From NCBI GenBank assembly GCA_947184155.2, contig CAMXCT020006567.1, positions 1,057,306-1,121,305 of the forward strand: 64,000 bases of DNA, given 5' to 3'. The translations under genes and the position numbers were made by a program. This document shows positions 34,691-59,966 of the stretch, one piece after another. Source of the DNA: Cladocopium goreaui (Eukaryota; Sar; Dinophyceae; Suessiales; Symbiodiniaceae). The notes under the pieces are model-generated. The model made no database searches and was not told the origin of the DNA. It was given only the letters and a program-made list of their open reading frames with translations. Each line of letters opens with the position of its first letter. Within the stretch, counting starts at the first letter, position 1.

Positions 34691-34726
34691 ATCTACTATC
34701 TACCTATCTATCTGCCAGCTTGAAAA

Positions 34727-37627: not shown

Positions 37628-37707
37628 TTGACCTTCACTCACCGAGGCCCCTTTTTCGGAGCCTCAACACTGTGTCTTCGGTCTTGTCCATCGGTGGCTG
37701 CCTCCTG
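37628..37707 (+). CDS. 7TM receptor exon: TM1, first half
   Basis: First recognisable exon of a class E (cAMP-receptor-like) G-protein-coupled receptor. Acceptor TTCCAAGAG (an alternative acceptor at 37603 adds 8 residues in the same frame), donor CTCCTG|GTGCCATC, phase 0 out. It reads DLHSPRPLFR then SLNTVSSVLSIGGCLL, the outer half of TM1. Joined to the next exon it gives GGCLL/VIGAFLAFPALR, the usual TM1 plus first intracellular-loop arginine of the family. The start codon and any signal peptide lie upstream and are not identified. Confidence 0.65.
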
Positions 37708-37900
37708 GTGCCATCCTCAGGGCAGACGGGAGGTGTTTTTTGGTGCATCAATGCCAGTGGTTTCATGACTTTTGATTTGATATTTCCTGTGCAGTTTGAA
37801 TCCTATCATATCTTCACATATCTCCTAATTTTTGTTGACTGTTGGTGTTCCTCTAACTCATCTCCCCTAGATCTGAGCGCATTTGACGACTGTCAAGCAG

Positions 37901-37948
37901 GTCATTGGGGCGTTTCTGGCCTTCCCAGCCTTGAGGCGTAGCCGTGGG
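37901..37948 (+). CDS. 7TM receptor exon: end of TM1 and intracellular loop 1
   Basis: Acceptor GACTGTCAAGCAG, phase 0, reading VIGAFLAFPALRRSRG. Hydrophobic residues followed by a basic cluster fit the TM1 cytoplasmic end. The 3' border is uncertain: a GA-type site after CGTGGG (37949) keeps phase 0 with TM2, GT sites at 37937 and 37944 would shift the phase, and ending after AGG at 37936 would give the shortest loop. Confidence 0.5.
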
Positions 37949-38885
37949 GATATGTTTGACTGTTTGACATGGGGTTGCAGCAAACATTTGGAAATGATCG
38001 GTGAGGATATCCTTGGGCAGTTGGGAATATTGTGGGGATATAGTTGCGGATATGGTTGATGGGGATAGAATCGGGATAGGCCATTGGGATTGGTTTGGTT
38101 AAGAACCGTATATATATAATTATACATATATATATATATATATCATTATACAGCATATACAACCAACACTATGATAGTTAAGAGTAAATTATCTTGTGAC
38201 CTCACAACGTAGATGATGGTTAGGATTGGAGGAATCATCCTCAACTGGCCATACTTTTAAGAGTGGTATATTGCTGTAGACCAGCCGAACATATGGCTTT
38301 TTCAAGTTGTGGTGAACTATGGTATGATGTGTGGATGCCGACTCAGATGTTGGAATGTGAAGCTAGTGTTCTTTGATGTGTATATATAATATATGTACAG
38401 TATATATGTATTTCATTGCATTTATATTTAATCATTTTCAGGTGTTAGTCTTTGTTTTTTTCCTGTATGGTCAAGGAATTAATATCTTCCTATAGTTCAT
38501 CCACGTACTTGGGGTACAAGGGCAAAACCATTGGTTTCATGAAGCGCTGCATGTTCTAGGGTCGCACCTAGGAACGCACCTTGGGGATGAGTCAATGCCT
38601 GTTGAATCATTTTGTGAGGGATAGAAACCATTATTTGTTTCGAGGTTTTACAATTTAACAAGACTTATTCACAAGCAAGGATGGGCAATATTTGGGTTTG
38701 TCTGAAAATATGGTACCCCCAAACTCGATGCTTTATCAGATTGCCCAAAAGGAATGGCTATAGAATGGGGAGAATGGGGATAAAGGAAGGTGCCTCGGTG
38801 GCGCACGCGAAAACCGACTCGGTTGTGCACACAAAAAACAACTCAGTTGTACACGCGGATGCGACGGATGATGATGATGATGATG

Positions 38886-39165
38886 CCTAGCCCCACCCCA
38901 GCCCCAAGGTTGAAGTGTGATGGCAAGTCGAAGGAAGTCGAGTAGCGGTTGTGTCCCTATAATGAAGTTTATTATCGGGTGCAGCTGATAGATCCTACCC
39001 TTTTCTTCCCTAGCCCCACCCCACCCCCCAAGGTTGAAGTGTGATGGTAAGTCGAAGGAAGTCCAGTAGCGGTTGTGTCCCTATAGTGAAGTTTAGCAAC
39101 GGGTGTGGCTGGTAGATCCTACCCTTTTCTTCCCTAGCCCCACCCCACCCCCCAAGGTTGAAGTG
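38886..39165. repeat. Tandem duplication of about 123 bp, two full copies and a third start
   Basis: CCTAGCCCCACCCC...AAGGTTGAAGTGT recurs at 38886, 39010 and 39133, with GTCGAAGGAAGTC and AGTAGCGGTTGTGTCCCTAT in the first two. Confidence 0.9.
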
Positions 39166-39299
39166 TACAAGTGAGGCAATTTTGTGTGTGTGTGTGTGCA
39201 AGTGGGTCGCCGACCGGGGATAAATCTTCCCATTTTCCAACTCAGAAATCAGATTGTTGATCACATTTCTCTTATTGTATATATATATATGGTGCAGCG

Positions 39300-39486
39300 T
39301 TGGCCACCCCCCCTCCCCCCCCCACCAATGGGTATTGGTGGACAGTATCGTCTGGTTTTCTGGTCCCCCCCCCCCCTGTGGCCTGTGGTGGTGGTATGGT
39401 TCGTTCTGGTCCCCCCCCCCCTTGGCCTGTGGTGGTGGTATGGTTCTTCTGGTTCCCCCCCCCCCTGTGGCCTGTGGTGGTGGTAT
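39300..39486. repeat. C-run / TGGCCTGTGGTGGTGGTATG tandem of about 55 bp, 3 copies
   Basis: Runs of 9-12 C are followed by TGTGGCCTGTGGTGGTGGTA and TGGTTC, three times. Confidence 0.9.
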
Positions 39487-39990
39487 GTTGGTATGTTGGT
39501 ATGTTGGTATGTTGGTATGTTGGTATGTTGGTATGTTGGTATGTATGTATGTATGTATGTATGTATGTATTGGAGGATGGATGGATGCTGAGGGTTGATG
39601 GTTGTATGTATGTATGTATGTATGGAATGTAAGGTAAGGTAAGGTAATGTAAGGTAAGGTAAGGTAATGTAATGTAAGGTAAGGTAAGGTAATGTAAGGT
39701 AAGGTAATGTAATGGTATGTATGTATGTATGTACGTAGGTATGTAGGTATGTAGGTATGTAGGTATGTAGGTATGTAGGTATGTAGGTATGTAGGTATGT
39801 AGGTATGTAGGTATGTATGTATGTATGTATGTATGTATCTATGTATGGAATGTAAGGTAAGGTAATGTAAGGTAAGGTAATGTAAGGTAAGGTAATGTAA
39901 GGTAATGTAATGGTATGTATGTATGTATGTACGTAGGTATGTAGGTAGGTAGGTAGGTATGTAGGTATGTATGTATGTATATACACCACC
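39480..39990. repeat. GTAT, TTGGTATG and AAGGT microsatellite arrays
   Basis: TTGGTATG (8 bp) copies, then (GTAT)n, then (AAGGT/AATGT)n twice, interleaved with TAGGTATG copies. Open frames on - are repeat artefacts. Confidence 0.95.
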
Positions 39991-40160
39991 ACAGGGGCAT
40001 CATACCCCCCCCCATCCCATGGGGGGGGGTGGGAACACGGGACACGGGACCATATATATATATATATATCTCCCATGAATCCCCACTATATCCCAATTTT
40101 GGTAAAGCAGCCACTCTCTGGTGACTCTCAAACTTAAACGCTCGGCTTGGGAAACTCCAG

Positions 40161-40266
40161 AGGCGCTACTTTGCGCGCTTGGTCCTGTACCTGGCCATAA
40201 GCGACCTGTGGCTTTGCACCTCCTTTCTGATGGGCCTGGAACTGAGTACTGACTGGCTGCGAGCCG
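40161..40266 (+). CDS. 7TM receptor exon: TM2
   Basis: Acceptor TTGGGAAACTCCAG, phase 0. It reads RRYFAR then LVLYLAISDLWLCTSFLMG, which matches the family's TM2 (basic loop, RLV.YL..SD). It then reads LELSTDWLRA in the first extracellular loop. The donor GCCG|GTCCCC gives phase 1, which the next exon needs; a second GT site eight bases later (40275) would give phase 0. It is the clearest GC-rich island in this part. Antisense frames are shadows. Confidence 0.8.
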
Positions 40267-40499
40267 GTCCCCCCGTGGGTTGATGATTAGTATGGAATTT
40301 TCTAAGCATGAAATTTTCGGAAGTGGATATAGCTGATACATGCTTATACTATTGATTGATTATATACACTAAATGACTATAGCTGATAAATGATTGTTGA
40401 TTGATTATATTTATGATGATTCCAACCGATATTGATTTTTCAGATGATCACAGTCCATAAGGGGAAATCCTATGGAAGGCCATTCATTTAGGGCATGAT

Positions 40500-41040
40500 T
40501 TTTCTTTTTATTCCTCTCTTCTCTCTACTGTGCTGATTTTCTGCTTTTTTGCTTCTCTGCTTTTCTGTTTTGGTCGCTTCTCTGCTTTTTTGCTTCTTTG
40601 TTGTTTTTGTTTTTCTGTTTTTTTGCTTTTCTGTTTTCTTTGCTTTTCTGTTTTTTTTTGCTTCTACACTTCTCTGTTGTTTTTGCTTCTCTGCTTTTCT
40701 GTGTTTCTTTTTTTCTGTTTTTTTTCCCTCTGTATTTTTTGTTTTTTTTTCCTTCTGTTGTTTTGCTTCTACGTTTTTTTGTTTGCTTCTGCTTTTTTGC
40801 TTCTCTGTTTTTTCTGCTTCTCTGTTTTTTGTTTCTCTGCGTTTTTGTTCACTAGTGTTTTTGTTCTGCTTTCGTTGCTTTTTGTTTTTCTACTTGCTTC
40901 CTTGCTGTTCTGCTTGATTACAAGTGCAGCTACAACTACACGAAGAACAACACCAGCAGCACAAACAACAAAAGCAACAAATATAAAAGGAACAACGAGA
41001 ACAACAAACGCAACAAAAGCAACAACCCCAATGCCCCCCT
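40500..41040. repeat. T/C-rich imperfect tandem followed by CAA-rich sequence
   Basis: GCTTCTCTGCTTTTCTGTTTT-like units of about 15-20 bp fill 40500-40910 (Phe/Leu-rich false frames). An ACAACAACA-type tract spans 40918-41030. Confidence 0.85.
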
Positions 41041-41717
41041 CCAGCTGTTGCGTGTTTTTGTTTTTGCCCTTTTGGGTTTCTTTGCGTTGGTCGTTGGTGT
41101 AAAGACCATGATGTGAATGACCTGGTTAACAAGTTAAGGTTTCACAATGCTTCAAATATTAGCCAAAATGGAAAGTCACCATGCAACATGGAAAATTGAA
41201 GTTCAAAAATGCTGCACATACATGCAAATATCATTCGCAAAATCTTGCAAATACCATGCAATATGAAAGGGTCTATTTTCCAAATGTCGCAGATGCCATG
41301 CAAGAGGTTCTATCTCCACAATGCAGGTTGACGTTGCAGAATGCTGAACATATTGCAAATGCCACGCAAACTCTGTTGTTTGTTTCCATTTTTTTTGCCT
41401 TGATGGTTTCACCAGTTTCTTGACTTCATGGCTTTGTTTGTGTCCACCTGTTCACCGCAACCAAAGCCACAAACGTAAGGAAATCACAAAGACAGCCTAC
41501 AGTAGCCTACACCCAAACAAAGACCACAACATCAACAGTTGTTGGTGTGTGCCTCCAGCTACACCAACCCCAACAACAACCACAACAGCAACAGCAACAA
41601 CAAAAGCAACAACAAGAAACAAAATTACTATTACAACTACAACTGTACTACCACAGCTACAAATACAACAACTACAGGAACTACAACAGCTACAACTGCA
41701 ACAAAAATAACAAGACA
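41041..41717. repeat. Degenerate 42-bp-type repeat and CAA tract
   Basis: 41160-41365 carries diverged copies related to the 42-bp array at 43170 (ATGCAA...AATGCTGCA). 41550-41710 is CAACAA/ACTACAA-rich. No exon seen. Confidence 0.6.
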
Positions 41718-41767
41718 AATTACTTTACTTCGTGTGATCCCCACCATGACATTTATACATGTTCTTA

Positions 41768-42656
41768 CTGGCACATCTTCTGGCATTCTATCTGACATAT
41801 CTTCTGACATTCTATTTGGCATTCTATCTGGCATATCTTCTGGCATTCTATCTGACATATCTTCTGGCATTCTATCTGGCATTCTATCTGGCATATCTTC
41901 TGGCATATATTCTGACATATCTTCTGGCATTCTATCTGGCATATCTTCTGGCATATGTTCTGGCATATATTCTGACATATCTCTGGCATTCTATCTGGCA
42001 AATCTTCTGGCATTCTATCTGGCATATCTTCTGGCATTCTATCTGACATATCTTCTGGCATTCTATCTGGCATATCTTCTGGCATATATTCTGACATATC
42101 TTCTGGCATTCTATCTGGCATATCTTCTGGAATATGTTCTGGCATATCTATCTGGCATATCTTCTGGCATATTTTCTGGCATTCTACCTGGCAAATCTTC
42201 TGGCACTCTATCTGACATTTTATCTTCCTATCGATATGCCAGATAGAATGCCAGAAGATATGCCAGATAGAATGCCAGATAGAATGCCAGATAGAATGCC
42301 AGAAGATTTGCCAGATAGAATGCCAGAAAATATGCCAGATAGATGTGCCAGAAGATATGCCAGAAGATATGCCAGAAGATATGCCAGAAGATATGTCAGA
42401 ATATATGTCAGAAGATATGTCAGATAGAATGCCAGAAGATATGTCAGAATATATGCCAGAAGATATGCCAGATAGAATGCCAGATTGAATGCCAGAAGAT
42501 ATGTCAGATAGAATGCCAGAAGATATGCCAGATAGAATGCCAGAATATTTGCCAGATAGAATGCCAGAAGATATGCCAGAAGATATGCCAGATCATATGC
42601 CAGAAGATATGTCAGATAGAATGCCAAATAAAATGTCAGAAGATATGTCAGAAGAG
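41768..42656. repeat. 24-bp minisatellite as a giant inverted repeat (inside copy II)
   Basis: Forward units (TCTGGCATATCTTCTGGCAT) occupy 41768-42226 and inverted units (GCCAGAAGATATGCCAGATA) occupy 42234-42656. The switch is at TTTTATCTTCCTATCGATATG (42218-42238). Each arm is about 420-460 bp and could form a large hairpin. Confidence 0.93.
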
Positions 42657-42972
42657 CGGTTGAGGTCCGGCAGGGAACACTGGGCGCGGATGGTCGCGGT
42701 TGAGGTCCGGCAGGGAACACTGGGCGCGGATGGTCGCGGTTGAGGTCCGGCAGGGAACACTGGGCGCGGATGGTCGTGGTTGAGGTCCGGCAGGGAACAC
42801 TGGGCGCGGATAGTCGCGGTTGAGGTCCGGCAGGGAACACTGGGCGCGGATGGTCGTGGTTGAGGTCCGGCAGGGAACACTGGGCGCGGATGGTCGTGGT
42901 TGAGGTCCGGCAGCGAACACTGGGCGTGGATGGTCGTGGTTGAGGTCCGGCAGCGAACACTGTGGATCGCGG
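42657..42972. repeat. 40-bp minisatellite (inside copy II)
   Basis: Eight copies of the unit containing GAGGTCCGGCAGGGAACACT, mostly with GGGCGCGGAT instead of copy I's GGGCGTGGAT. This indicates local homogenisation. A GAC/GAG tract follows to 43078. Confidence 0.95.
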
Positions 42973-43166
42973 GTCGCAGTTGAGCAAGGACGACGAGGAC
43001 GACGAGGACGACGAGGAGGACGAGGAGGAGGAGGAGAGGAGGAGGAGGAGCAGGAGGAGGAGCAGGAGGAGGAGGAGGCAACTGACATAAAATCTAACAA
43101 CCCTCACCTGGCAGGTGGGGAACAAGAACCCCCACCTAACAGACAACAACCAACAACAAACAACAA

Positions 43167-43535
43167 CTTGCAAAAAGCATGCCAAATGGAAGAATCCAGC
43201 TCCAAAATGTTGCAAATATATTATCATGCAAAATCGAAGGTTCCAGCTCCCAAATGTTGCAACTGGCAAGCACGATGGAAGGTTCCAGCTTCCACATGTT
43301 GCAATTGGCAAGCCAAATGGAAGGTTCCAGCTGCAAAATGCTGCCAATGGCATGCGAAACGGAAAGTTCCAACTATAAAATGCTACAAATAGTATGCAAC
43401 ATGGAAGGCTCTAGCTTTAAAATGCTGTGCGTAGCATGCAAAATGAACAGTTCCAGCTTCAAAATGTTGCAAATGGCATGCAAAGTGGAAAGTTCCAGCT
43501 CCCAAATGCTGCAAATAGCATGGAAAATGGGGACG
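43167..43535. repeat. 42-bp tandem repeat, about 8-9 copies
   Basis: Units contain TGGAAGGTTCCAGCTCCAAA, ATGTTGCAA and TGGCATGCAA. 42 bp is 14 codons, and one frame gives WKVPAPKCCNWQAR-type repeats. Substantial divergence between copies. Confidence 0.9.
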
Positions 43536-44168
43536 GCCAGGAATTAAAAAGAACTAAACTCAACTAAACAAAAATTAATTCCCTAAACAACTTCCTACCT
43601 AAATCCTACTAACCAGCCAGTCTAAAAGGACGACAGAAGGGTTTTGAACACTGGAAAGATGAACATGTGGTTTTGTCTGAAAAATTTTGGGAACCCCCCT
43701 GAATCCACTGGGTCAATTATCAGAATTACCCCCAACTCAAGTAATCCCGAATTGTATTTGGCCCATATTGGGGGTATGCACCATTTCAGACACACCCAGA
43801 TATAAATACGTACATGTAGGTAGCGACGATATGTAGCTACAACAATATATACATATTGACCAGACGTTTGTTTAAGCTTGTTTATTTGAATGTAGCTACA
43901 TCAGATGAGTGATCATACTGATGCGCGTACAACGAGTCGCCCCTGGGCGACAAATGGCAATCGTTCCTCTCCAGTGATGGGCGATGCACTGGAATGATTC
44001 CGTGAACAATTAGGGCAGTTTCAACATGTTTCAACCACGAAGCAGTGTTTACAGCCTGTATAAAAAGTATAAAAACTGTTTTTGGAACTCTCCTGGCTGG
44101 AATATTTTCAGCCAGCTTTTTGGAACAGATGAAGGCTTTTTTTCTCCATGCTGATTTTTTTCCTCGAG
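43536..44168. other. Intron of the 7TM gene
   Basis: Contains family C element C2. The last 60 bases are pyrimidine-rich (GCTGATTTTTTTCCTCGAG), as expected for an acceptor region. Confidence 0.5.
43673..43796. mobile_element. Family C foldback element C2
   Basis: TTGTCTGAAAAATTTTGGGA and right end GGGGGTATGCACCATTTCAGACA. The arms pair imperfectly. Confidence 0.6.
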
Positions 44169-44219
44169 GTGAGTTTGAACGCCCCCACTACACCAAGTGT
44201 GTGGTGCAATCGATGCTAG
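44169..44219 (+). CDS. 7TM receptor exon: extracellular loop 1 and the TM3 cysteine
   Basis: Acceptor TTTTTTTCCTCGAG, phase 1 in. It reads (G)EFERPHYTKCVVQSML. The Cys before VVQ is the conserved TM3-top cysteine that in this family bonds to the ECL2 cysteine. The end is set by phase at CTAG|GCTTGG, a GC-type donor (GC-AG intron), giving phase 1 to match the TM3 exon. No GT donor fits. 51 bp. Confidence 0.65.
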   Translation: MSLNAPTTPSVWCNRC

Positions 44220-44832
44220 GCTTGGCTCGCTGGATGAATATTTGTTTCTTATTGTTTCAGCAGTATTCTCACTATTCTGATGATGTTTATTATATGTTAT
44301 GATGATGATGATGATTATTATTATTATATACTTGTACTCTGCAATTGATATCTCATAGAAAGAAATGTATGTAAATTATATCACATATAGCTATATATAT
44401 ACATATACATCCATCCTACCACTTTCTTACCAACAAAATAAAAATACGTATTATACATGCAAGATGACTTTGACTTGGAACTTGAAACTCATCTTGGATG
44501 ATCCGCCGAGCCATGCTGGAGTTGGGTAGAGATCGCAGTCTTTGTAGTACTTGTATGTTCAAATCCCTATCTGGTTTTGGTTCATTGCTATTCCCGAATT
44601 GTATATATATATATTATTATTATAGTATCCATACGTTTGAATGTTCATAAACATGCATATACATCATATACATACATACATACATACATACATACATACA
44701 TACATACATACATACATACATACAAACATACATTACATTACATTACATTACATTACATTACATTACATTACTTACATACATACATACATACATACACACA
44801 CACAGACATACATACATACATACATACATACA

Positions 44833-44868
<36 letters not shown>

Positions 44869-45053
44869 CATCATACACACATATATATATATCATATACA
44901 TGTCATATATCATATACATATATCATATACACATACCATACACATATATCATATATATATATATTATATACATATATCACAAAATAACATCTGAAATCCT
45001 GTGTGTACACATCCTCTTTACTCCTTCTAGCCCCTCATTGACCCGAAGCGCAG
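44220..45053. repeat. 7TM intron with CATA and CATTA microsatellites
   Basis: (ACAT)n at 44667-44725, (CATTA)n at 44727-44775, (ACAT)n again at 44776-44865, then TATA/CATATA sequence to about 44980. (GAT)n sits at 44298-44315. Confidence 0.9.
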
Positions 45054-45150
45054 CAGGCATCTTTTTCGGTTTGTCCTCGATTCTCTGGACGGTGGCCATT
45101 GCAGACTCCATCCGACGTCACTGGGCTGCCCGCACCGCAACTTTTGCACG
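45054..45150 (+). CDS. 7TM receptor exon: TM3
   Basis: Acceptor ACCCGAAGCGCAG, phase 1 in, phase 2 out at the donor GCACG|GTGATA. It reads GIFFGLSSILWTVAIA, then DSIRRHWAARTATFA. The LWT..IA motif in TM3, about 17 residues after the exon-44169 cysteine, is characteristic of cAMP-receptor-like GPCRs. The following Arg-rich stretch is intracellular loop 2. Confidence 0.85.
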
Positions 45151-45177
45151 GTGATATATGGTGGTTTCCTAAAATAA

Positions 45178-45283
45178 CTGATTGGTGGTTTGGAACATTT
45201 GGATTATTTTTCCATATATTGGGAATAATCAGCCCAACTGACGAACTCATATTTTTCAGAGGGGTAGGTATACCACCAACCAG
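45178..45283. mobile_element. Family B MITE-like element B4
   Basis: CTGATTGGTGGTTTGGAAC and GTATACCACCAACCAG. It is flanked by perfect ATAA duplications and starts 28 bp after the TM3 exon. Confidence 0.92.
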
Positions 45284-45776
45284 ATAAGGCAGACCCCCCA
45301 AATCATCCATTTTAGTAGGATTATAAACCATCCAGCCATTGGGGTGCCCCCATGACTATGGAAACCTCCATGAGTAGAGCAAAACAGTGGAACGATGCCG
45401 GCTTAACCCGGCTTGACGGCTTGACAAGGAAATCGGGTTTGACAGTCATCATGTCTATGATAAAGTATTACAAAATGATGTTTACTAAAATAAACTATCA
45501 TAAATAATCTACTTTATGAAATAATCTATTTTATGAAATAATCTATTACTTTATGATAGTTTATATTTCATTGTAACTTTGATTTTTTTTGCTTACGCTG
45601 GCTTCTGTGATTGTGTATCCCGAGTAAAATCCTGTGCAAACTTTCATGATTAACAATATTTCAGAGTCACAGACAGTCACAGACCGTCACAGACCGTCAC
45701 AGACAGTCACAGTCCAATAGTATTGCAGGTATCATGACTATTGCAGATATCAAACCTTATTATAGAATATTATAGA
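45284..45776. other. 7TM intron sequence
   Basis: Contains TGAAATAATCTATT repeats (45505-45560) and a 10-bp tandem TCACAGACAG/TCACAGACCG (45665-45712). No exon seen. Confidence 0.5.
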
Positions 45777-45898: not shown

Positions 45899-45965
45899 TA
45901 ACCAGATTATCACAGATTGATGTGATGCTCCAATTGTACGGACCATTGCAGGTATCAAACCTTAT

Positions 45966-46069: not shown

Positions 46070-47653
46070 TTATTTATTCACCAGATATTTATTAACCACC
46101 ATTAACCATAGAATAACCATATATTAACCATAGAATAACCATTATAAATAGGTCAACCATTAGTCACAGACCTATTGTCCTTCACGGTCATGCCGATCGC
46201 CTTGAGCCGATCGAGTCGATCGAGGCATCGTCATGGCCCGAGATTTGACCGTGGAAAGCCGGTTTCTTCGGCTCGGGGGTAAGGCCGAGTTGTCATAGGG
46301 AGAGAATGACGGGAAAAAGTGATGAAAAAGTGATGAAAAAGTGATGAACTGAGTAGCCTTCAATTATATTATATATATCTATGTATATATATATTATGTA
46401 TATATATAAATATATTATAATTATGTATATGTATATATATATTCCCCTATTTTTCAGATAAACAATATGTATGAATGGGGGTTGTCGAGCAGGCGTACAT
46501 GTTGGTGTGGTGTATGGCTATGGCAATAGGAGCAAAAAAACGAATTCAACCGGCGAAGGTAAAAGGCGATTCAACCGACGAAGATGTGGATGATACACAG
46601 CAATACTAAAAAGGGAACATAGGGGTTGATTGAACTGATCGTTGTCATATTTTCAAATTTATTGAGATTGGATATCCAATATCCCATATCCAATATCCAA
46701 TATTGTCTCGATGAATCGTTTTCTGGTTTCACGGAGCTTCACGTGTTTTTGTCTTAAAGGTACACTGCTTAAATGACACAATTTGCACCATTGCGCCGTT
46801 TGGTTCACGTGTGATAGGTGTTTCACATGGTGAAACCAGCAGTATCGGAACATATCGGAACTGAGAACTGAGAGTCTTCACCAAAATGGTGATGTTTTGG
46901 GCGAACATTAAATGAGCATTGTAGGTGACTCGTGACGAAATGCTCGATACATGCATATCACATGCATGATTGAAATCGCTCTGAATTAGCAAACTATTGT
47001 GTTTCTGCGTTGACCCTTTGGTGTCAAGAATGTCTGAGACCGAGTCTATGTTCAGGATTGATACGTACTGTTCAGAGCATTCAATCTCACAACAGAGAGA
47101 GAGAGAGAGAGAGATAGAGAGATGCAGGTATAGATCTCAACAGAATTGCTATAGGACCAATGGCACTCCAGCAAGCAATGTAAAGCAATTCATCCGAGAT
47201 CGGGTTTAAGGAATACCCTACAGGGATCTACAGGGAACCTGTATACTGTGCTATATTGATGGCTCAAACCTTTTTTCAACACAACCATCAATAAAGGACA
47301 TTTTGTTGCTGAAAAAAATACCATTATTCTAATCCAAATACCCGCTGTTAAGGCTGTTAATCAAACGTGGCCACGGAAAATAAACTACCCCCCATCTTTA
47401 GATAATGTTCCCAGCTAGAAACCACCACTTAGTTCCGGAGGTCCCTTCTTGCCATGTTTGATGACTGAACGGTATATGAATATCTCCATGTATCCCCATT
47501 ATAACCATTTATATCCCCCATTAAATCACAATTTTCCTGATTAAGTCACCATTTTTGATGTAAACACCACCTAGGCCCAATCCTTTCCATGGCTTTCCCA
47601 TGTTTTTCAAAACGACCGGGTTCAGTTTCTCGATGGTCCACGGACGATCTCAG
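46070..47653. other. 7TM intron sequence
   Basis: Includes TA stretches (46362-46445) and (GA)n at 47095-47120. A GC-richer island at 46170-46285 is open but its phases do not fit the receptor. It may be an unrecognised exon or a decayed insert. Confidence 0.4.
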
Positions 47654-47685
47654 GCATGAAAAGCGACTTCACATTGGCTGTTGGG
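47654..47685 (+). CDS. 7TM receptor 32-bp microexon: intracellular loop 2 to TM4
   Basis: Acceptor GACGATCTCAG, phase 2 in, donor TTGG|GGTCTG-type (GTCTGG at 47686), phase 1 out. It reads HEKRLHIGCWG. With the next exon this gives HIGCWG/LPLLALG, the family's H...WG.P motif at the start of TM4. The frame continues open to 47737, where a stronger donor GTAACA exists, but using it would break the TM4 motif. Confidence 0.72.
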
Positions 47686-48962: not shown

Positions 48963-49032
48963 GTCTACCGCTGCTGGCCTTGGGCCTGGTCCTGGTCTTG
49001 GGTGCCACCGGGCCCAGCGGGATGATCTGCTG
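48963..49032 (+). CDS. 7TM receptor exon: TM4
   Basis: Acceptor GGGGTCCCAAG, phase 1 in. It reads LPLLALGLVLVLGATGPSG then MIC, a hydrophobic TM4 followed by the Gly/Ser turn and Cys. Donor CTGCTG|GTGCC gives phase 2 and joins the next exon to form CWIE, the conserved ECL2 Cys-Trp-Ile of the family. Confidence 0.8.
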
Positions 49033-49083
49033 GTGCCTTGGATGACGATGTTAACTATAGATTGTAGATATAACATGATATAA

Positions 49084-49719: not shown

Positions 49720-49751
49720 GATTGAAAACTCGGCGCTCGGAACCGTCTTGC
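49720..49751 (+). CDS. 7TM receptor 32-bp microexon: extracellular loop 2
   Basis: Excellent acceptor CCGCCTCCCTTTAG, phase 2 in, donor TTGC|GTAGCTTGG, phase 1 out. It reads (W)IENSALGTVL(R). Joined to its neighbours it gives CWIENSALGTVLR/LATFYLPLW, the family's CWI...R..FY.PLW block. Only the phase-compatible, motif-completing match makes so small an exon credible. Confidence 0.75.
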
Positions 49752-50044: not shown

Positions 50045-50138
50045 GTCTTGCGACCTTCTACTTGCCTTTGTGGCTGGCCATTGCTTACTCCCTCTGGGCC
50101 TGGATCCCTGCCGGATCGCAGCACAACATGGACCGATG
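50045..50138 (+). CDS. 7TM receptor exon: TM5
   Basis: Acceptor ATGAACTGCAG, phase 1 in, donor CGATG|GTGATT, phase 2 out. It reads LATFYLPLWLAIAYSLWAW then IPAGSQHNMDR. The FY.PLW..I.Y motif is a hallmark of TM5 in cAMP-receptor-like receptors. A family A foldback starts 28 bp after the donor. Confidence 0.85.
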
Positions 50139-50166
50139 GTGATTTGAAGCATGCTGCGACTCAGTT

Positions 50167-50276
50167 TACCCTCCGGTAAACATACAAATAGCTATTGAAA
50201 ATGACCATAGAAATAGTGGATTTACCCACTAAAATGATGATTTTCCATAGTTATGATGTTAGTTTACCAGAGGGTA
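50167..50276. mobile_element. Family A foldback element A11
   Basis: TACCCTCCGGTAAACATACA and right end TTAGTTTACCAGAGGGTA. 110 bp. Confidence 0.88.
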
Positions 50277-50582
50277 ACCCTTCGATTGGCACCAACAAGA
50301 TATCCAGAATAAAGCCGCCATAAGCGGTCCCCTTGAAGCACGCTGTCTTTGGACCCGAATTTCAGGGCCCGTTCGAATTGAATCAGCTTCGGTAAACAAC
50401 CATATTTTCAGCTGGTCTTTTTTCATACCATAGAATTGTGGCTCAAAAAATCCCATTCTGTTCAACTATTAAGCACCATTTTGACCAGTATTAGTCACCA
50501 TTATCCACCCTTTTAGATCCCATTAAACATCATTAAACCACTATTTTTCGTTGGTGAAATATGGTGAAATCCAAGCCCAAAG

Positions 50583-50616: not shown

Positions 50617-52636
50617 GTCTATTGGTGCGTCTCCCAACGCCTGAGCCACCTTTTGGATGAGTCCAGTGCCGTGACGAAGTTTGGGACTGTAGTTCCAGTA
50701 CATACATACACACATATGTATAATTATGTATATATATATACATATGTATGTATGTATATATATATAGAGTAATGTCTAAGAATGTATAATAATGCATATA
50801 TATAGTACATATATATATAATATGCTTATAGCGACAGTTACAGGGGTTATTTCCCAACTTCTGAGGGTTAGAATGCCATGGTTATATCATATTATCCATT
50901 AAGTTTCGACCACTACACCACGAAGTAGGCACTGCAAACTGGTTTCATTGAACTGCAACTCATTACTTTATTCACTCAATGTTCATAACACTTGAGTGTG
51001 GTCTTACAGATCCAATATAAGCAAAACTGTGTGTATATATATATATGTAATATTGTAATTGTAATGAGTAATGTGTATAAATAAATAAATATATATATAT
51101 ACCCCCAGGCCGGGGGTGCGTCCCAGACGTTTATCATGTGACCAACTCTTTAGGGTTGTTTAGGGTTTGTTTAGGGTTTCATTTAGGATTTTCAGGGTTT
51201 TTACCATGGTTTTAACAAGACTGACTACTTTCAAGGCTTACAAAAATGGTGTCATATCAGGTTTAGGTTTTAGGGTTTAAGATGTAGTGTTTAGGGTTGC
51301 CATGGACAGCCACTGGCCCGCAGTCAAAACACACAAACCTCCGGGCAGCACCCCCGTTGTGAACGTGTGTGTATGTATATATATATAGATAGATACACCT
51401 AACAAAATTTATGTGCTGCCACTGCTCATGACATGCAAAGGGTAAAAAAAGACACCCTCCGAAGCTTTTGAACAGTCGCTTGCAGCAAACTCTAGCGTGC
51501 AAGAATGATCAGAGTAGTCAGAGTAGCAGATTATGTCAAGGTGTTCAGGTTCACGAAGTTTGATTAATTTTAATCCATGGGCTTTTTAATCCAAATAGCA
51601 TGTTTTAATCAATGGTAGTTTTCAGCATCCATTTCATGCTACGTTTCTCACTGATTACCTGGAAGATGAAGTTCAGGCGGCCTTATGCTTCAGGGCCCCC
51701 TAACAAATAAAGCCCCATCATCACAGAGTTGGTTGAAAGGAACATCGATCATTTTATGCTTGAGCGCAAAAGCAATGCTTTCCTGCAGATGTTGCACAAA
51801 ATCCATTGAATGGGATTGATATCAAGGCATATTTTGAAGTTCTCAATCTCCATCAAGCAATATTGATTATATAGTTCTTTTTATCAATACCATATGAAAC
51901 TCCAATTAAGCCATAAACCCCAGTTGCCAGAGGCTCCCCTTAGATTTCCACGGCAACCCGATGAGGCAACGCGGATGAATACGAGGGCACTGCCTTCGAA
52001 TACCACAAGGATCCTTTGAAGATGTGAATCCGGACAGGTAAGATGACCAGTGGATAGCCAGCGGCTTTAGACTGGGGAATCCCCAAGTCACCATAGCGGA
52101 AAAATAGGTTTCAATACTAAAATGGTACTTGGACAGCTTTATTGGGATCCCCCATTTGAGGAAAAACAAATAAAAACAACATATATGTATAAATGGGGCA
52201 TAGGACCAAGCACAATTGGATATCACTTGATATGAATATAATGATATATATATATAATGTATAAATGATACATGTCATGGGATATGATATAACCAGCCAG
52301 TTGACAATTTATCTTGTTTTTGTGTGTTTGACATGGGGTGGATTTACCTCCCAAATTGTAATAATCCAATGGGAACGTGAATCATAATTGACCAGTGGAT
52401 TTCCCTGTTTTCCCATTTGGACAGGGCAATATTATTCCAACAACAAGGGGTATCAACCCACTTCCGGGGCGATTGGGTATCCAGTCTCGCAGATTATTGA
52501 AGACACTTTCAAGGAATGCTGTTGATATTCGATACAGTATTATTTGATACAATTCCTGCTCGTCGTCTTTGTTGAGTCAGATCATTCAACTCAACTCAAC
52601 CAGATTTCCACACTCGGCCCCGCTTGCCCCGCCCAG
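50617..52636. other. 7TM intron sequence
   Basis: TA/ATGTA sequence (50700-50820, 51030-51105) and the telomere-like stretch listed separately. Open frames on - at 51263-51502 and 51906-52226 have no recognised motif. Confidence 0.45.
51148..51300. repeat. Degenerate TTTAGGG telomere-like repeats
   Basis: TTTAGGGT-type motifs occur at about 51149, 51158, 51169, 51182 (TTTAGGAT), 51262-51275 and 51288. Plant/alveolate-type telomere heptamer, interrupted by unrelated bases. Confidence 0.7.
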
Positions 52637-52725
52637 GACTTGGAACGGCAGCGGCGATCGCTGCGGCTGATGATGCTCCTACCCCTGATTCTGGTCTTTT
52701 GCTGGTCGCCCAGCTCGCTTCGCAG
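52637..52725 (+). CDS. 7TM receptor exon: TM6
   Basis: Acceptor GCTTGCCCCGCCCAG, phase 0. It reads DLERQRRSLR (basic end of loop 3), then LMMLLPLILVFCWSPSSLR. The PLIL..CW.P core with a following Arg matches family TM6. The end is proposed at CGCAG|GCGCC, a GC-type donor giving phase 2 for the TM7 exon; the frame stays open to a GT site at about 52754. An alternative acceptor at 52603 would add 11 residues. Confidence 0.75.
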
Positions 52726-54284
52726 GCGCCATTGGCCATCCCAGTATATCAATGGTTATGAAATGTTATCAATGTATCCCAGGTATCCCAGGTATCCCAG
52801 TATATCAGTTTTACCAGTTATATATTGACGAATACTAAACAGAACTAGTACTTGGGTTTCTACTAGTACAGTCGGACTGGTGAAAAAATCTGATTAACCG
52901 GCGGTGTCCATACCTTTTCGATTTTCATTGACAGCTTGGTGTACACCCCTCAAAATGGCCATAAATGGGAAGATGATGGTGATATTTATGGGCCAAAAAA
53001 ACATGGAAAACCATCAAATGTTGGGTTTTTCCATGGTTTTCCCGGAAAATGGATCTGAATGGTGATATTTTTTGTCATACTGGAAGACCGCAAGGCAATA
53101 CTATCGAATAGCTACAGTAAATATGTTGGTCTTGAGGTCTTGAACGTGTGTTTTGCTCCACTTGACCTAGAAAGCAGTTCCGCTAGATCTTCGCAGCTCG
53201 CCGGGAGGTTGTTGGACGTGGTTTTTCCGCACATGGGCAGATCCATCTTGGATTATGTGTCCGGAAACCAAACTCATGTGCGATGTGGATGCCCGATTGG
53301 AAAAAGACCAAGATGGATTTTCTGTGGGTCCTTTAAAATACTGAACGTGATCCCAGGGAATTCTGACTAGCAGTGTATAGCAAAACACAATTGCCTACAT
53401 TGGCTACCAAAGTCAGTCAGAGCTCAGTAAACAAACATGATCATGACATACACGTATTTCTGTTTAGAGGGGTCGCACAGAAGGACCCAATAGGTGTTTT
53501 TTAGTAGAACTGGGGCGGCCAACAAAAAGCAGTATCTACTCAAGTACAGTAGCTCCTGAAATTTCTCAGTCATATTCTGATGAACCAAAACATATCAAAA
53601 AACACAGCCATTGCAAGACAAGTTCCAAGGTTCCAAGCCCCTGCTTGTTGGTCCCTACTTATCAGGTACTGTCTTCTCCTGATTTTGGTGTTCACAATAA
53701 ATTTCAACCGCAATGCTGAAGTAGATGTTTTGTAGATGCCTTTCAATTTGCAGCTTCAACACCCATTTCGATCGGATTTTGCCGCTAAATTTCCACATGT
53801 TTTTTCCAGTTTGTGGATTGAGGTAGTCAACACCTATTAAAACCGATTTTTTTAGAGCAAGAAATAGAGTTCACCTTCAAGGGCTATCATATGCTGTCAT
53901 AAAGTACTGGCATCTACAGACTCTTGTGACAGGATTCAACTTTTCCTTTGGGGCTTGCAAAGAGCTACAAGCCATCAACACACGACAGAAAACATCTGCT
54001 GCACAACATGCCATAAGAATGGGTAGCTGTGCATCTTGGAGCAGAATATACAGCAGCAATAGGTGGCTGTAGAAGCATTTGCGCTTGCAACAGTTCATTG
54101 AAAGCATATAAAGGTGTAGGTGTGCCCAAGGATATACATAAGAAGTATGGTGGGAAGGGCATACATTACGTAGGTGGATATACACAAGCACATCTAACAC
54201 TCTGGATAAGAAGGATGGTGGGAATATTACAACTCAAGAAGTAGGTACATATCTATACATATCTTGTTTATCATTGTTATATTG

Positions 54285-54760
54285 CAGAGTCTTGTCAGCA
54301 GGCTCATGTCAATAATTAGAGAGACAGAGAGAAAGCCAGAGAGACAGAGAAGTGTGTCATGCTGTTGACTATTAAGATCAGGCCACTTGTGTGGTGGCAT
54401 AGCTATTCAAAGACAATCGTATGTTTGCTTTTTTAAACATCAATTTAGACCATTGCCAAGATCCAAACATACATGATCTAGCCTGCACCCAAGGGGCAGT
54501 TGCAGTCACTATTGTCAAACATACAGTAACTCTAAAAAAATCTTTACACATCAAAATTATCAACAAATGAAGTAAAGTTTATCACTGAAGAAGTTGGACG
54601 CATTTTCTGTATGTCATCCCGTATCTTTTCTTGTCGAGCCTTGTTGGCAGATTCATTTTAAGAAAGATACTGTACTCATTATTGAATTGGCTTTCGAAAT
54701 CCAAACATGTATGATCTAGCCTCCAGTCAAGAAACAGCTGCAATTGAAATTCCTCAAACC
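54285..54760. repeat. Diverged duplication, copies about 235 bp apart
   Basis: ATCCAAACATACATGATCTAGCCTGCA at 54465 and ATCCAAACATGTATGATCTAGCCTCCA at 54699, each followed by CAGCTGCA or CAGTTGCA and TCAAAC. TTGTCAGCAGGCTCAT (54292) resembles TTGTTGGCAGATTCAT (54640). Confidence 0.7.
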
Positions 54761-54857
54761 GATATTAGCAATAGATGATGTAACAGTGATAGAAGGTTTG
54801 ATGTTTTTTTTTAGCTTTGTTCCTTGTCAATGTGTCAATGTTTTGTGAGGTCAGAGT

Positions 54858-54995
54858 CACCAAGCCTGCACAGGCACCAAAAAAACAAAAACACCAACCA
54901 CATGCACCAAGCCTGCACAGGCACCAAAAAAACAAAAAAATGGGTCCACTGTAGTTGCTAGATTTTTTTTTGTGCCTGTGCAGGTTTGGTGCATC
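54858..54995. repeat. Three-copy foldback: two direct copies and one inverted copy
   Basis: CACCAAGCCTGCACAGGCAC followed by AAAAAAAC occurs at about 54859 and 54903. The reverse complement (TTTTTTGTGCCTGTGCAGGT then TTGGTGCA) is at 54964-54993. It also contains the palindrome GCCTGTGCAGGT/ACCTGCACAGGC. Confidence 0.85.
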
Positions 54996-55192
54996 TAGCG
55001 TTTGTTTGGGTACCTGTCAATGTTTCTGTATATCTCATGTCAAGATCATGATGCACAAAAAATCGTTTTACTAGGGTTTCTGACCCTCCAAGTGCATAAA
55101 ACATCGTTATTTACAGTGTTTTATCATGATCTTTCATTAAAAATCCCTCCCCCAACGGGGTGCCGCTCTCGATTTTTTGGGGATCAACTGAG

Positions 55193-55275
55193 GTGTGTCT
55201 TCACTGGACCCCTGCAGGGTTTTCTGAACGCCTTGGTCTATGGCTCTACACCCGCCGTGCGAGATGCCATCACAG
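55193..55275 (+). CDS. 7TM receptor exon: TM7
   Basis: Acceptor GGATCAACTGAG, phase 2 in. It reads CVFTGP, LQGFLNALVYG, STPAVRDAIT. LQGF.N..VYG is the signature TM7 motif of class E/cAMP-receptor-like GPCRs and is the single strongest family evidence here. The donor ACAG|GTGGGG gives phase 1. The frame also stays open for 32 more codons to the GTAAAC of a family A element at 55371, which gives phase 0 and fits the next exon better. Confidence 0.85.
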
Positions 55276-55361
55276 GTGGGGCTGACTTAGGGGAGAAATC
55301 ACCCGAAAACATGGCTGAACCTTTCGGGATGGTCATGTTGAACCAGATTGTTTGTTCGACT

Positions 55362-55469
55362 TACACTCTGGTAAACTAATCTAGCTATGGAAATTCACCA
55401 TCTCTAATAGGTGAATCAACTATTTCAATGGCCATTTTCAATAGCAAAGTGTTAAATTACCAGAGGGTA
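55362..55469. mobile_element. Family A foldback element A12
   Basis: TACACTCTGGTAAACTAATC and right end TTAAATTACCAGAGGGTA. It begins where the open frame after TM7 ends, so its GTAAAC may serve as the exon's 5' splice site. Confidence 0.88.
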
Positions 55470-56111
55470 AGTTGCTCAAGAGATCTGATTGGATACCCTA
55501 AATTTCTGATCCTGGACGTGGGCACCTTATGGGGCAGGTAGTCTCTCCATAGCATGTGGTGTGACTTCCGAGTGACTTCCCATTTGCCCAGTGTGAATTC
55601 CATATCGAAGTTGGGGACGTGCAATGTCCATCAATATCGGTCAAATTCGGTCAATGTTAGTAGAGGGAAGCCTTGGGTACATCTCGGCCACTGGGGTATG
55701 TATCTCATTGTATCTCCGCTTTGGAGCAAAAAAAACGGCTTTTGGAGACTAGCAGTAGGGCTTGAAATCCGATAAGTTGTCCAGTAATGCGGCAAACCAT
55801 GGCAACCCCAATAAACAATGCTCGACTTTAGCAGAAATGGGTGGTGTAGTCGCCATCCCCAATTTGAGATCTGACACCATTGGGTTTACCGCATTGATTT
55901 GCTCCTCGACGAGTCACTAGTTGACTTCCCAATGTTCATAAAATCTTCAGTCGAAGCCTCCCAGTTGTGAAGAAGCGGCCCAAAATACTGAACATATTGT
56001 TTGATATCATGGCTTCAAATAGAGATTATCTGTAGAATCATACCAACATATGTTACCATTTCTAACCCGAGTCTCCGAGTCAGTGGGTAATAACCATTAG
56101 AATCCACCTAG
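55470..56111. other. 7TM intron sequence
   Basis: Short open frame 55554-55775 on +, not phase-compatible. Nothing else recognised. Confidence 0.45.
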
Positions 56112-56261
56112 ATACCGGACATCCCTCGGCTCTCGGTGATAAAAACCACACTTAACCCCGGCGCCAAAGGCCGCTTCGACCACGGCGCCGCGAAGCTGAA
56201 AGGCCTCAAGTCGCAGCTCCGCATGCTGCGCCGCAAGCGGAAGAAGTTTCAGAACTTCGAG
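56112..56261 (+). CDS. Exon, probable cytoplasmic tail of the 7TM receptor (basic helix)
   Basis: Acceptor AATCCACCTAG, 50 open codons, donor TTCGAG|GTGCGA, phase 0 on both sides. It reads IPDIPRLSVIKTTLNPGAKG, then RFDHGAAKLKGLKSQLRMLR and RKRKKFQNFE. The strongly basic, helical, GC-rich (>60%) sequence fits a membrane-proximal C-tail. Assignment to the receptor rests on order, strand and phase only. It could start another gene. Confidence 0.6.
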
Positions 56262-57459
56262 GTGCGATGGGCGAGATGATGGATATGGATCTGACGGGAA
56301 CCAACTTCGATTTTATGGGTCAAACAAAAATGTCCTCCCGAAAAATGGATGGTTAATGATGGATATGGCTAGTGCATTTGTGAACAAATATGGCTATGGA
56401 TCAATACCTATACATACCATTTTTAGGGGGATGAACATCCATTTACCAGCTATTTTGATGTTCACCAAGGGTACAAGATTTTGACCCATCCCCATATGAA
56501 CATACAAACAATACGCGAAATCTGCGGTCCCCTGGGCCTGAAAGTTTCTTCGCCATACACCAAGATGGCCATGGAACTGTGTTGGAACAATCTGAAGCAT
56601 GTGACAAACTCCCTGTTTCTGTTGTTTGGTACCGGATATCGTTATGTTTGTTGATTGCTGAGATTCCAATAATATATATATATATACACATATTATGATA
56701 TATGTTTGGAAATTACAGTGGACAAAAATGCAAGGATAGACCCGAATCATTGCGTTTTTATGACAATATTGTTCCAAACATGCCCTGAACAACGAGTTAT
56801 TGCTCTTTTTCCTCGTAGGGTTTGCCACCTTAAAACTGTTTTAAGAACATGGAAACAACAGAGTCCTACCTACTAGATATAGTGTGGCAAAGTCCCCATG
56901 ACATTCCAATGGTCAGTCTGCCCAATCCCACATGTTTTGGAGGGAAACCTTCCAACAACAATGGATCACCACAGATATGATGTATATGCTTCTACAGAAA
57001 GTTAAGGGTGTTCTGTACTAATTCAGTACTTTGTTGTTTTGAAGTTCACGACAGGACTTGTAAGTAGTCAATAGCCATCGTTTCCCTGAGTAATAAATGG
57101 AATGTTGCCTCATCAGTTTGAAAAGGGTGACTTTCCCATCACCTAAACCGTTTCCGGAGAACGCTCACACAACAACGGGATGTTTTTTGGGTCCATAACA
57201 ATGGAGAATCCGTTGGTCCCCTGAGTCGCAAATTTGGACCTTTCTATGGCCTTGTCTCAAAATGAACATGGGGTTTAAATAAAACCCTGGTTTATGGGCA
57301 TTACAAGAGGGGAAATGTTTCTCTAGACCTTGGAGTTTGAGGTTCCAATTTCCGCGAAAGCCCCCAAGAAATCATCACAAACCTGCACAACACCATATAT
57401 ATATATGTTTTCACATTTTTTGTGGAATCCCATGGGTTCACCCCAGTTCATCCTCTCAG
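56262..57459. other. Intron sequence
   Basis: A small TA block at 56671-56690. No exon recognised. A - frame at 56394-56828 lacks motifs. Confidence 0.45.
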
Positions 57460-57519
57460 GATGCCCCTTCGCCGGACGGCGATGGCGCTTCGGATGGTGC
57501 CTCTGGGCCGGAGCCCACC
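57460..57519 (+). CDS. Exon, acidic Gly/Ser/Pro tail segment
   Basis: Acceptor AGTTCATCCTCTCAG, exactly 20 codons (DAPSPDGDGASDGASGPEPT), donor CCACC|GTGAGAC. Phase 0 on both sides, matching the exons at 56112 and 59874. The disordered acidic composition fits a receptor C-tail. Confidence 0.6.
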
Positions 57520-57759
57520 GTGAGACTTGACTCAAGGACTTTTTTGTGGAATCCTCAGAGATGGATTCAGTGGATTATTGTGGATAATCATGGATAATGC
57601 CAACATCGGATTAATAACCCCCCCCTATAGGTCAGGGATGGTCAGAGTATACCTTGCAAGGTCTTTCCTGGTATCCTCCCTTAATAAATGACAATATGAT
57701 AATATAATATAATGACGATGAGGATGAGGATGAGGATGATGATGATGATGATGATGGTA

Positions 57760-57878
57760 TACCCTCTGGTAAACTAACGTAGCTATCAAAAATGGATGAA
57801 CACCGCCCGTAGAAATAGTTGAGTTTCCAATTGGCAGTGGCGATTTCCCATAGTTATGTGACAGTTTACCAGAGGGTA
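57760..57878. mobile_element. Family A foldback element A13
   Basis: TACCCTCTGGTAAACTAACG and right end GACAGTTTACCAGAGGGTA. Inserted at the end of a (GAT)n microsatellite (57719-57756), with ATGATAAC continuing on the right. Confidence 0.88.
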
Positions 57879-58138
57879 ATAATGATAACATACAGTAATT
57901 GGGATGTAGAAAACGTTAGTTATTATCCCATAATACAGAAATTGGATAATTGGGATGTAGAAAATTAATCCATATTAACCCATATTAATCCATATTGACC
58001 ATTCATAGTGGAATGTTTCATGATATCCTACGAATATGTTCATGCTAATATCAATTGCGGGCACGAGAAAAATTGACTTGGTTGCGCCGCCGAAAAGGGG
58101 CAAGCACACGGTAAGATTATACTAATCACTATGATGAT
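57879..58138. other. Intron sequence with short repeats
   Basis: TTGGGATGTAGAAAA repeated at 57899 and 57949, and CATATTAACC/CATATTAATC repeats at 57971-58000. No exon. Confidence 0.5.
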
Positions 58139-58236
58139 CTGGTTGGTGGTTTGGAACATTTTTTATTTTTCCATATATTGGGAATAATCATCCCAACTGA
58201 CTAATATTTTTCAGAGGGGTTGACACCACCAACCAG
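58139..58236. mobile_element. Family B MITE-like element B6
   Basis: CTGGTTGGTGGTTTGGAAC and TTGACACCACCAACCAG ends. Flanked by TGAT on both sides (4-bp duplication). 98 bp. Confidence 0.93.
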
Positions 58237-58886
58237 TGATACGTATGATTATACTTATTGAATACTGTACTATTGGGATATATCTGATATCATGATCCAA
58301 AGTATTTTGACGTGAGCAGAAGAGCATCAGGGTTTTGATCCATAGCATTTGTTTCCTCATTGGCAAAATTGGCAGCAGATGATGCCTATTCGCATGAATG
58401 GTAGCCCATCCAGATTTTGAGGATGTCCGGAATGGACTTAACTTACCATCCCAGTGAAGTAAAATCTCTGAAACTCAGGGCCGGAAGGGGCCTAGGGGAT
58501 CAATGAATCAACAAACCACCAAATGGCAACTCTGTGGACCCAGATGGCGGCTTCTTCATGCTATTCTCACAGGCCTGCTTTTTCCGTTTTTTTTTCACAT
58601 ATGTTCTTATGGATTTTCCAACGAAGTCACTAAGGAAATCTGATGAGTTTAGGGTTTTTGTTGATCTTTGCTTTGAATTATTTACATTGAATTATTTACA
58701 TGCTACTGATACTAGATCTGATACTAGATTTGTTATTGGTATAATGCAGCTATGGTCGTTCAATACAACGTAGGTGCCCTCCGAGCAGTGCTCGGAAGAA
58801 TCTTACTGCATTTGCAGTTAGCATCAGTTAGCTTACTGGGCTGACCTCCTGATTGAGCTGGCTTTGGGTTCCAAAGGGTGCCATTT
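58237..58886. other. Intron sequence
   Basis: Nothing recognised. A + frame at 58534-58773 has no motif. Confidence 0.45.
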
Positions 58887-58992
58887 CTGATTGGCGGTCT
58901 GGAACATTTCTTATTTTTCCATATATTGGGAATTTCATCATCCCAACTGACGAACTCATATTTTTCAGAGGGGTAGGTCAACCACCAACCAG
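58887..58992. mobile_element. Family B MITE-like element B7
   Basis: CTGATTGGCGGTCTGGAAC and GTCAACCACCAACCAG ends, flanked by ATTT on both sides. A stray family B end (ACCACCAACCAGAGGGGTA) follows at 59042. Confidence 0.92.
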
Positions 58993-59187
58993 ATTTTGTT
59001 AATTCATTAGATCAGGTATTAATCACTATTAACCACTATTAACCACCAACCAGAGGGGTATCATCCAGTCCGGCAACATTTCTTCAAGAGTGCTTGGAGT
59101 GCGCGATTGGCGTGTTTGGACCGATTGGACCCATGAATTTCCTCCCATGCGTCAATGGTGTGATATGATATTTATGTATATATATAT

Positions 59188-59206
59188 AGTTAGATAGATA
59201 GATAAT

Positions 59207-59283
<77 letters not shown>

Positions 59284-59300
59284 GATAGATAAGATAGATA

Positions 59301-59354
<54 letters not shown>

Positions 59355-59355
59355 T
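59188..59355. repeat. (GATA)n microsatellite
   Basis: About 35 copies of TAGA/GATA with AAGATA interruptions near 59281 and 59301. Confidence 0.97.
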
Positions 59356-59561
59356 ATATCATTATATTTCTATTTTTGTATTATATATTTATAATATTAT
59401 ACTTACAGTATATATATACACATGTATACGCACTGTAAATTACAGTAATTACATCGGTTTGAACATCACCCTGCCACAGCACCACGGTCAATCCGGCTAA
59501 GGATCGGCCGTGAGATGGAGGAGCCGTCACGGTCCCTGAAATACCCCGAGCTGAATTCATG

Positions 59562-59685
59562 TACCCCCTGGTAAACTGTCACATAATTATGGAAAGATCC
59601 ACCATTTTTAATGGGTAAATCATGGTAAATCCACTATTTAACAATGGCCATTTTCAATAGCAAACTGTTTGTTTACCAGAGGGTA
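59562..59685. mobile_element. Family A foldback element A14
   Basis: TACCCCCTGGTAAACTGTCA and right end GTTTACCAGAGGGTA, 124 bp. ATTCATG occurs immediately on both sides, which may be a 7-bp target duplication or chance. Confidence 0.9.
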
Positions 59686-59873
59686 ATTCATGAATATTGT
59701 ATGTATAGAAATGGAAATCCGTGAATTGATTGGAATCATGAATGATTCATTGAATATTGTATGTATAGAAATCCAATCAATCCCTCCATGAAATCTTTGG
59801 GTCTGGACCATCTGGAGGATATATCCCATATATATCCCTATTTTGATGATAACTTTCACGCTTTGAACGCCAG

Positions 59874-59966
59874 GAGAGTCCTCCGGCTCTTGCTGGCGTC
59901 TTCACCAGCGACACCAAGGAGGCGACTGTGGGGCAGGAGAGCTGTCATCAAGAACGAGGGAACTGA
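59874..59966 (+). CDS. Probable last exon of the 7TM receptor
   Basis: Acceptor TGAACGCCAG, 30 codons beginning ESPPALAGVFTSDTKEATVG, then QESCHQERGN and a TGA stop at 59964. Phase 0 joins it to GPEPT of the 57460 exon, and the acidic/Pro character continues. An internal donor (GCGACT|GTGGGG, 59922) could instead splice to the phase-0 exon at 60799. Confidence 0.52.
   Translation, partial: ESPPALAGVFTSDTKEATVGQESCHQERGN

Follow-up and report, generated by a model that had tools for sequence, protein, structure and literature searches.

The 64,000-nucleotide stretch of the Cladocopium goreaui genome analysed here (the window) very probably contains an intact, expressed nuclear dinoflagellate gene for a 380-residue seven-helix receptor, orthologous to the proteins named GCR1 and G-protein coupled receptor 1. 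The gene consists of 21 exons on the + strand, which run from 37329 to 60858 and are followed by a TAG stop, giving a coding region of 37329-60861. Its coding sequence of 1,140 nt plus stop is spread over 23.5 kb, in exons of 19-92 bp (mean 54, median 51) and between introns of 193-3,935 bp (mean 1,120 bp, total 22,390). An earlier sequence-only reading had proposed, at 37628..59966, a seven-transmembrane (7TM) receptor of class E (cAMP-receptor-like) with about 1.1 kb of coding sequence in 22 kb. Its islands do belong to one real receptor gene, with every listed motif sitting in a true exon, but the gene is larger than proposed, and the count of a dozen exons was too low. Both proposed borders fall inside introns (37628 in intron 1, 59966 in intron 20), and exons 1 and 21 lie beyond them.

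Transcript evidence for a spliced gene

The exon borders are settled by a transcript-level protein, P0001, of 380 residues, predicted from contigs of which the longest is 1,337 nt and belonging to an 18-member cluster with 8 contigs. It was the best of 24 proteins with E-values up to 0.001 in a protein search with a 247-residue hand-made join of the islands. P0001 is best read as the product of a spliced transcript, because its source contigs are far shorter than the gene. The source code 'lgn' presumably denotes assemblies of public read archives, and the cluster lists no NCBI source. An intronless retrocopy elsewhere in the same genome was rejected as the source of the transcript, since all seven matches (E<=0.001) lie at this locus. 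The transcript joining the islands that the sequence-only reading had expected is thereby found, as a protein predicted from contigs rather than as reads.

Genomic coordinates were obtained by spliced alignment of P0001 to the + strand of 36500-63900. The spliced score of P0001 was 2049 on the forward strand versus 68 on the reverse complement (30001-64000), and over 36501-62000 six shuffled proteins scored 59-77 and the reversed protein 90. A chance origin of the exon chain was rejected on this basis (2049 versus 59-90 for the eight controls). The G+C content is 59.1% in the coding sequence and 72.9% at its third positions, versus 40.1% in the introns and 41% in the whole window. Intron phases 0, 1 and 2 are represented by 6, 7 and 7 introns.

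The alignment also permits a closer look at the hand-made join, which comprised ten islands and lacked exons 1, 3, 7, 12, 13, 15, 17-20 and 21. Judged against P0001, four of its ten segments overran by 27-45 nt into introns. The in-phase joining of neighbouring islands had been offered as support for the gene; phase alone is weak evidence, because three of the four overrunning segments still joined in phase. The claim that motifs split by introns become whole once the exons are joined held up. Specifically, in the outer-loop-2 motif C/WIENSALGTVL/R the C ends exon 9, the W codon is split between exons 9 and 10, and the R codon is split between exons 10 and 11.

Family, signalling and competing explanations

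The predicted match to a cAMP-receptor family was likewise found: P0001 scores 45.3 bits against PF05462 (Dicty_CAR; Pfam cut-off 21), and the 247-residue join had scored 34.7 bits against the same cut-off. The predicted structure of P0001 (model me464df854e2b) is a 7TM protein with the fold of G-protein-coupled receptors (GPCRs), and a structure search with it matches GPCRs. Frizzled, Smoothened, adhesion and glycoprotein-hormone receptors stand at the top with nearly tied Z scores, a list that is read as reflecting the common 7TM fold of the model, not class. A sequence search of the PDB with the 247-residue join returned eight weak matches, the best being Frizzled-4 (E 0.001). P0001 has 16 residues ahead of the first helix and about 100 past transmembrane helix 7 (TM7), in keeping with the short N- and C-termini that passages of PMC12716839 describe for class E, with no number set. 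On sequence grounds class E fits best as the family match for P0001, which is not the same as a proven function. Class E receptors are described in ciliates in parts of PMC9960496 and in alveolates generally in parts of PMC12716839; a literature search yielded no paper with such a receptor from a dinoflagellate in its title, although one may still exist. An NCBIfam scan of P0001 returned nothing, and that collection covers bacteria and archaea.

The data are compatible with a model in which the receptor spans a cell membrane, its N-terminus of 16 residues faces outward and a Cys82-Cys154 bridge would tie outer loop 2 to TM3. A ligand bound from outside would move TM5 and TM6, and the inner loops together with the tail of about 100 residues would relay the signal, a heterotrimeric G protein being the likeliest recipient. 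Dinoflagellates have already been reported to use GPCR signalling (Mojib and Kubanek 2020, as cited in passages of PMC10532982 and PMC12716839), and in Tetrahymena, another alveolate, a receptor knockout lowered G-protein activity according to part of PMC3226668. A genome search with PF00503 (G-alpha) gave 13 matches, in open frames of 180-231 residues, the top one being an Arf protein (PF00025 250 bits versus 56 for G-alpha in a Pfam scan). Arf calls were made by Pfam scan for the open reading frame (ORF) of match L008, on another contig, and by eye for that of L014. The search does not count G-alpha out, because a like search missed the receptor itself. It is decidedly improbable that the GCR1 clade of dinoflagellates represents a class E branch separated long ago whose signal bypasses heterotrimeric G proteins and passes through a different partner at the tail. 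As a side observation, PF00503 matches L009-L013 (contig C2436), L014 (C5010) and L015 (C6165) lie about 1.2-1.6 kb apart with one gap of 3.0 kb, a spacing that suggests tandem arrays of Arf-type GTPase genes.

Two other explanations bear on what the gene is. It might be a decaying relic, with exons kept by chance and a transcript that is not a working message, as its very long, repeat-filled introns and exons down to 19 bp could suggest; but the frame is open across 21 exons with the stop in place, the spliced protein belongs to a cluster of 18 members, and the Durusdinium trenchii protein is 93% identical, with exons 1-17 at 83-100% each, so that a relic is extremely improbable. Alternatively, a working receptor might be a member not of the cAMP-receptor family but of the GPR157 family, which neighbours class E. 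GPR157 is similar to cAMP receptors, and its motifs in TM2 (LLxxLS[LVI]xD), outer loop 2 (WCW[IVL]) and TM7 (QGxxNxIxF), as given in passages of PMC12716839, have a form like those of P0001. Compared by eye with these passages, however, LVLYLAISD, ICWI and QGFLNALVY of P0001 each differ at one or two positions, with some of the changes conservative. The best Pfam family is Dicty_CAR, though no GPR157 model was among the Pfam results to compete, and the relatives found with the A3 profile include the metazoan 'cyclic AMP receptor-like protein A', in a comparison without GPR157 sequences. Placement in GPR157 is unlikely, if the least unlikely of the alternatives considered.

Several points nevertheless weigh against an intact, expressed class E receptor gene with the structure and signalling described. 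The cluster of P0001 was built at 90% identity from a source without species name, and P0001 agrees with the genomic exons at 378 of 380 residues, so that two differ. The splice-site tally (acceptors AG|G in 20 of 20 introns; donors GT 10, GC 7, GA 3) is partly built in by the aligner, in which donors were restricted to GT, GC or GA and acceptors to AG, with a two-point edge for AG|G; several exon borders can also be moved by 1-4 nt. Since PF00001 (7tm_1) also passes its cut-off in P0001 (35.2 bits, cut-off 30.5), assignment to class E depends on the scores and on kinship. A PF05462 profile search of the whole genome (1.166 Gb) gave no match although the receptor gene is present, which shows that such a search is weak for exons this small. 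The ligand and coupling steps are putative, and of the 13 PF00503 matches the one tested is an Arf and a second looks like an Arf by eye, by which a G-alpha is not shown.

Exons, introns and repeats

All exons described here lie on the + strand and follow the spliced alignment of P0001. Exon 1 (37329..37375, donor GC) holds the start codon and the N-terminus; at 37325-37331, in CTAG|CCATGG, an AG lies two bases ahead of the receptor ATG and could act as a spliced-leader acceptor. TM1 is encoded by exon 2 (37647..37707, GT) and ends in exon 3 (37901..37935, GC), which continues into the first inner loop. Exon 4 (40163..40233, GC) carries TM2 with LVLYLAISD, and the ORFs P0021 and P0024 match P0001 over the same residues, 48-72. 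Exon 5 (44169..44219, GC) encodes outer loop 1 and opens TM3 with CVVQ, exon 6 (45057..45116, GT) holds TM3 with LSSILWTVAIA, and exon 7 (46225..46261, GT) supplies inner loop 2. TM4 begins with HIGCWG in the 32-bp exon 8 (47654..47685, GT) and continues with LPLL in exon 9 (48963..49032, GT), after which exon 10, also 32 bp (49720..49751, GT), provides outer loop 2 with IENSALGTVL. Exons 11 (50045..50097, GC; ATFYLPLW) and 12 (50617..50665, GT; VYWCVSQRL) encode TM5 and its end, exon 13 (51966..52009, GA) inner loop 3, and exon 14 (52637..52725, GC) TM6 with PLILVFCWSP.

Outer loop 3 and the start of TM7 lie in exon 15 (53208..53258, GT), and TM7 with LQGFLNALVYG in exon 16 (55193..55275, GT). 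The cytoplasmic tail starts in exon 17 (56170..56261, GT) and runs through exon 18 (57460..57521, GA), the 19-bp microexon 19 (59502..59520, GA), which owing to its size is the least certain exon, and exon 20 (59874..59921, GC), to end with the TAG stop in exon 21 (60805..60861). Exons 3, 7, 12, 13, 15 and 17-20 had gone unnamed in the sequence-only reading.

That reading had called the gene 'exploded'. Means for C. goreaui in part of PMC9412976 are 17.2 exons per gene, 120 bp per exon, 839 bp per intron and 15.7 kb per gene, with donors GT 36.6, GC 43.6 and GA 19.8% and an AGG acceptor in 96.1%; GC/GA donors account for 25-74% in Symbiodiniaceae in passages of a review (PMC11453091). Half of the donors in the receptor gene are GC or GA. 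Counting against a typical structure, its mean exon is under half, and its mean intron above, the C. goreaui mean in that part of the source. The structure is normal in kind for the lineage and stands at the finely cut end of this style, rather than being an odd explosion. The spread-out gene is most probably an ordinary result of intron build-up in the lineage, where the 20 introns are removed by a spliceosome that recognises AG|G at acceptors and tolerates GC and GA as well as GT at donors; tandem arrays and short repeats of the dispersed kind have enlarged several of these introns.

Whether introners, transposons turned introns, drove the splitting and can be seen directly in this gene is a related question. 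Introners are reported in dinoflagellates (passages of PMC11453091), and in three ORFs on other contigs (P0016, P0018, P0019) the stretches of exons 16 and 17 follow each other directly, with intron 16 (894 bp, 55276..56169) absent, which indicates that introns here come or go. However, in the 20 introns scanned the longest exact inverted repeats lying no more than 40 nt from an intron end measured 4-7 nt, and intron 16, the only one of the 20 searched across the genome (40 of 2,897 candidates scored), has at least 66 further matches, all within its positions 70-203 of 894, in an element of about 110 nt, and none at its ends. That introners drove the splitting and show directly in the receptor gene is rather improbable, and ordinary intron build-up is the preferred account.

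The introns and their surroundings are rich in repeats. An element of about 110 nt that matches both strands (palindrome-like) occurs at 55362-55470, 50166-50277, 59562-59686, 57760-57879 and elsewhere in the window; it lies in introns 11, 16, 18 and 19 and recurs across the genome, where 40 of 2,897 first-look candidates were scored. A second dispersed repeat of about 105 nt, at 45178-45285, 58138-58240, 58886-58994, 60447-60540, 61316-61383, 24417-24529 and 6259-6360, lies partly within introns 6, 18 and 20 and partly beyond the gene. Intron 4 contains a composite block (41763-42962) of opposed 12-bp tandem arrays, with arms of up to 244 nt that are 83% complementary, followed by 40-bp repeats; related blocks lie at 18867-19988 and 22359-23589, one of which matches at 94% over 465 bp. 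Adjoining tandem arrays with units of 16 bp, 72 bp (94% matches, 7.9 copies) and 44/100 bp occupy 32029-33531, and two or more + frames stay open over most of the 72-bp array. The window gave no Rfam match at gathering score and no tRNA.

Relatives and their gene models

NCBI already lists orthologues from Durusdinium trenchii ('G-protein coupled receptor 1') and Symbiodinium natans ('GCR1'), and the gene family is known. A second search, with alignment A2, found 26 proteins at E<=1e-10, including NCBI entries from Polarella glacialis and 'GCR1 [Symbiodinium natans]'. A third search, which started from four relatives at greater distance, found 22 at E<=1e-15, including Lineus longissimus 'cyclic AMP receptor-like protein A'. 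Both scored the best 8,000 candidates by shared words. A tree of 31 of 52 proteins, chosen for spread and rooted at the midpoint, with neither an outgroup family nor a Dictyostelium cAMP receptor, places 14 close relatives labelled beforehand, P0001 included, on one side of a branch at 100/99. Three of these 14 come from source-named dinoflagellates (Durusdinium, Effrenium and Polarella), and the others carry no species name. The tree includes one protein named cyclic AMP receptor-like A, and four other rows have long branches.

The orthologue models partly bear out the prediction that ab initio gene finders would probably miss such a gene: models do exist, but four of five are plainly damaged (P0002, P0004, P0006 and P0035, with P0025 the other). 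P0006 from EukProt, taken as a genome-based prediction from its name only, has a 21-residue insert within the exon 9 stretch, misses a portion of exon 14 and stops at exon 17. Inserts or short tails in such models might also reflect genuine differences between species. Upstream of the receptor gene, on the same strand, a neighbour (30452-36510, +) matches the part of the fused S. natans model P0035 that is not receptor, for instance with VEEKLSDYLANSPHCKLEFCR and MSVVNGKLMVKLEPTSHDRG; the neighbour's exon at 33620-33671 is weak, and matches farther upstream are not trusted. Gene order looks conserved between this genome and S. natans.

Taken together, these findings resolve the complete structure of a class E-like receptor gene from a dinoflagellate and give an exon-by-exon view of annotation failure, in which four of five orthologue models are cut, fused or mis-spliced. 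Receptor counts in algae of the coral-symbiont type may consequently be too low or distorted, and the receptor is one candidate for sensing outside signals in these algae.

Among the closest known proteins, D. trenchii G-protein coupled receptor 1 (P0002) is 93% identical to P0001 with exons 1-17 at 83-100%, but its public model of 325 residues stops at the end of exon 17 and leaves exons 18-21 unmatched. S. natans GCR1 (P0035) matches exons 1-6 at 56-100% identity and exon 7 at 100%; beyond exon 7 its public 472-residue model departs from the receptor, and it also carries a fused upstream protein. The NCBI entries P0004 (Effrenium voratum) and P0025 (Polarella glacialis) are unnamed proteins and 7TM relatives in the same 14-row group; the former leaves exons 1-3 and 18-21 unmatched, and the latter, at 447 residues, matches exons 1-20 and leaves exon 21 unmatched. 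Lineus longissimus cyclic AMP receptor-like protein A (P0049), in contrast, stands on a separate tree branch and carries GPR_Gpa2_C, which is not listed for P0001, but shares with P0001 a Dicty_CAR match above the cut-off.

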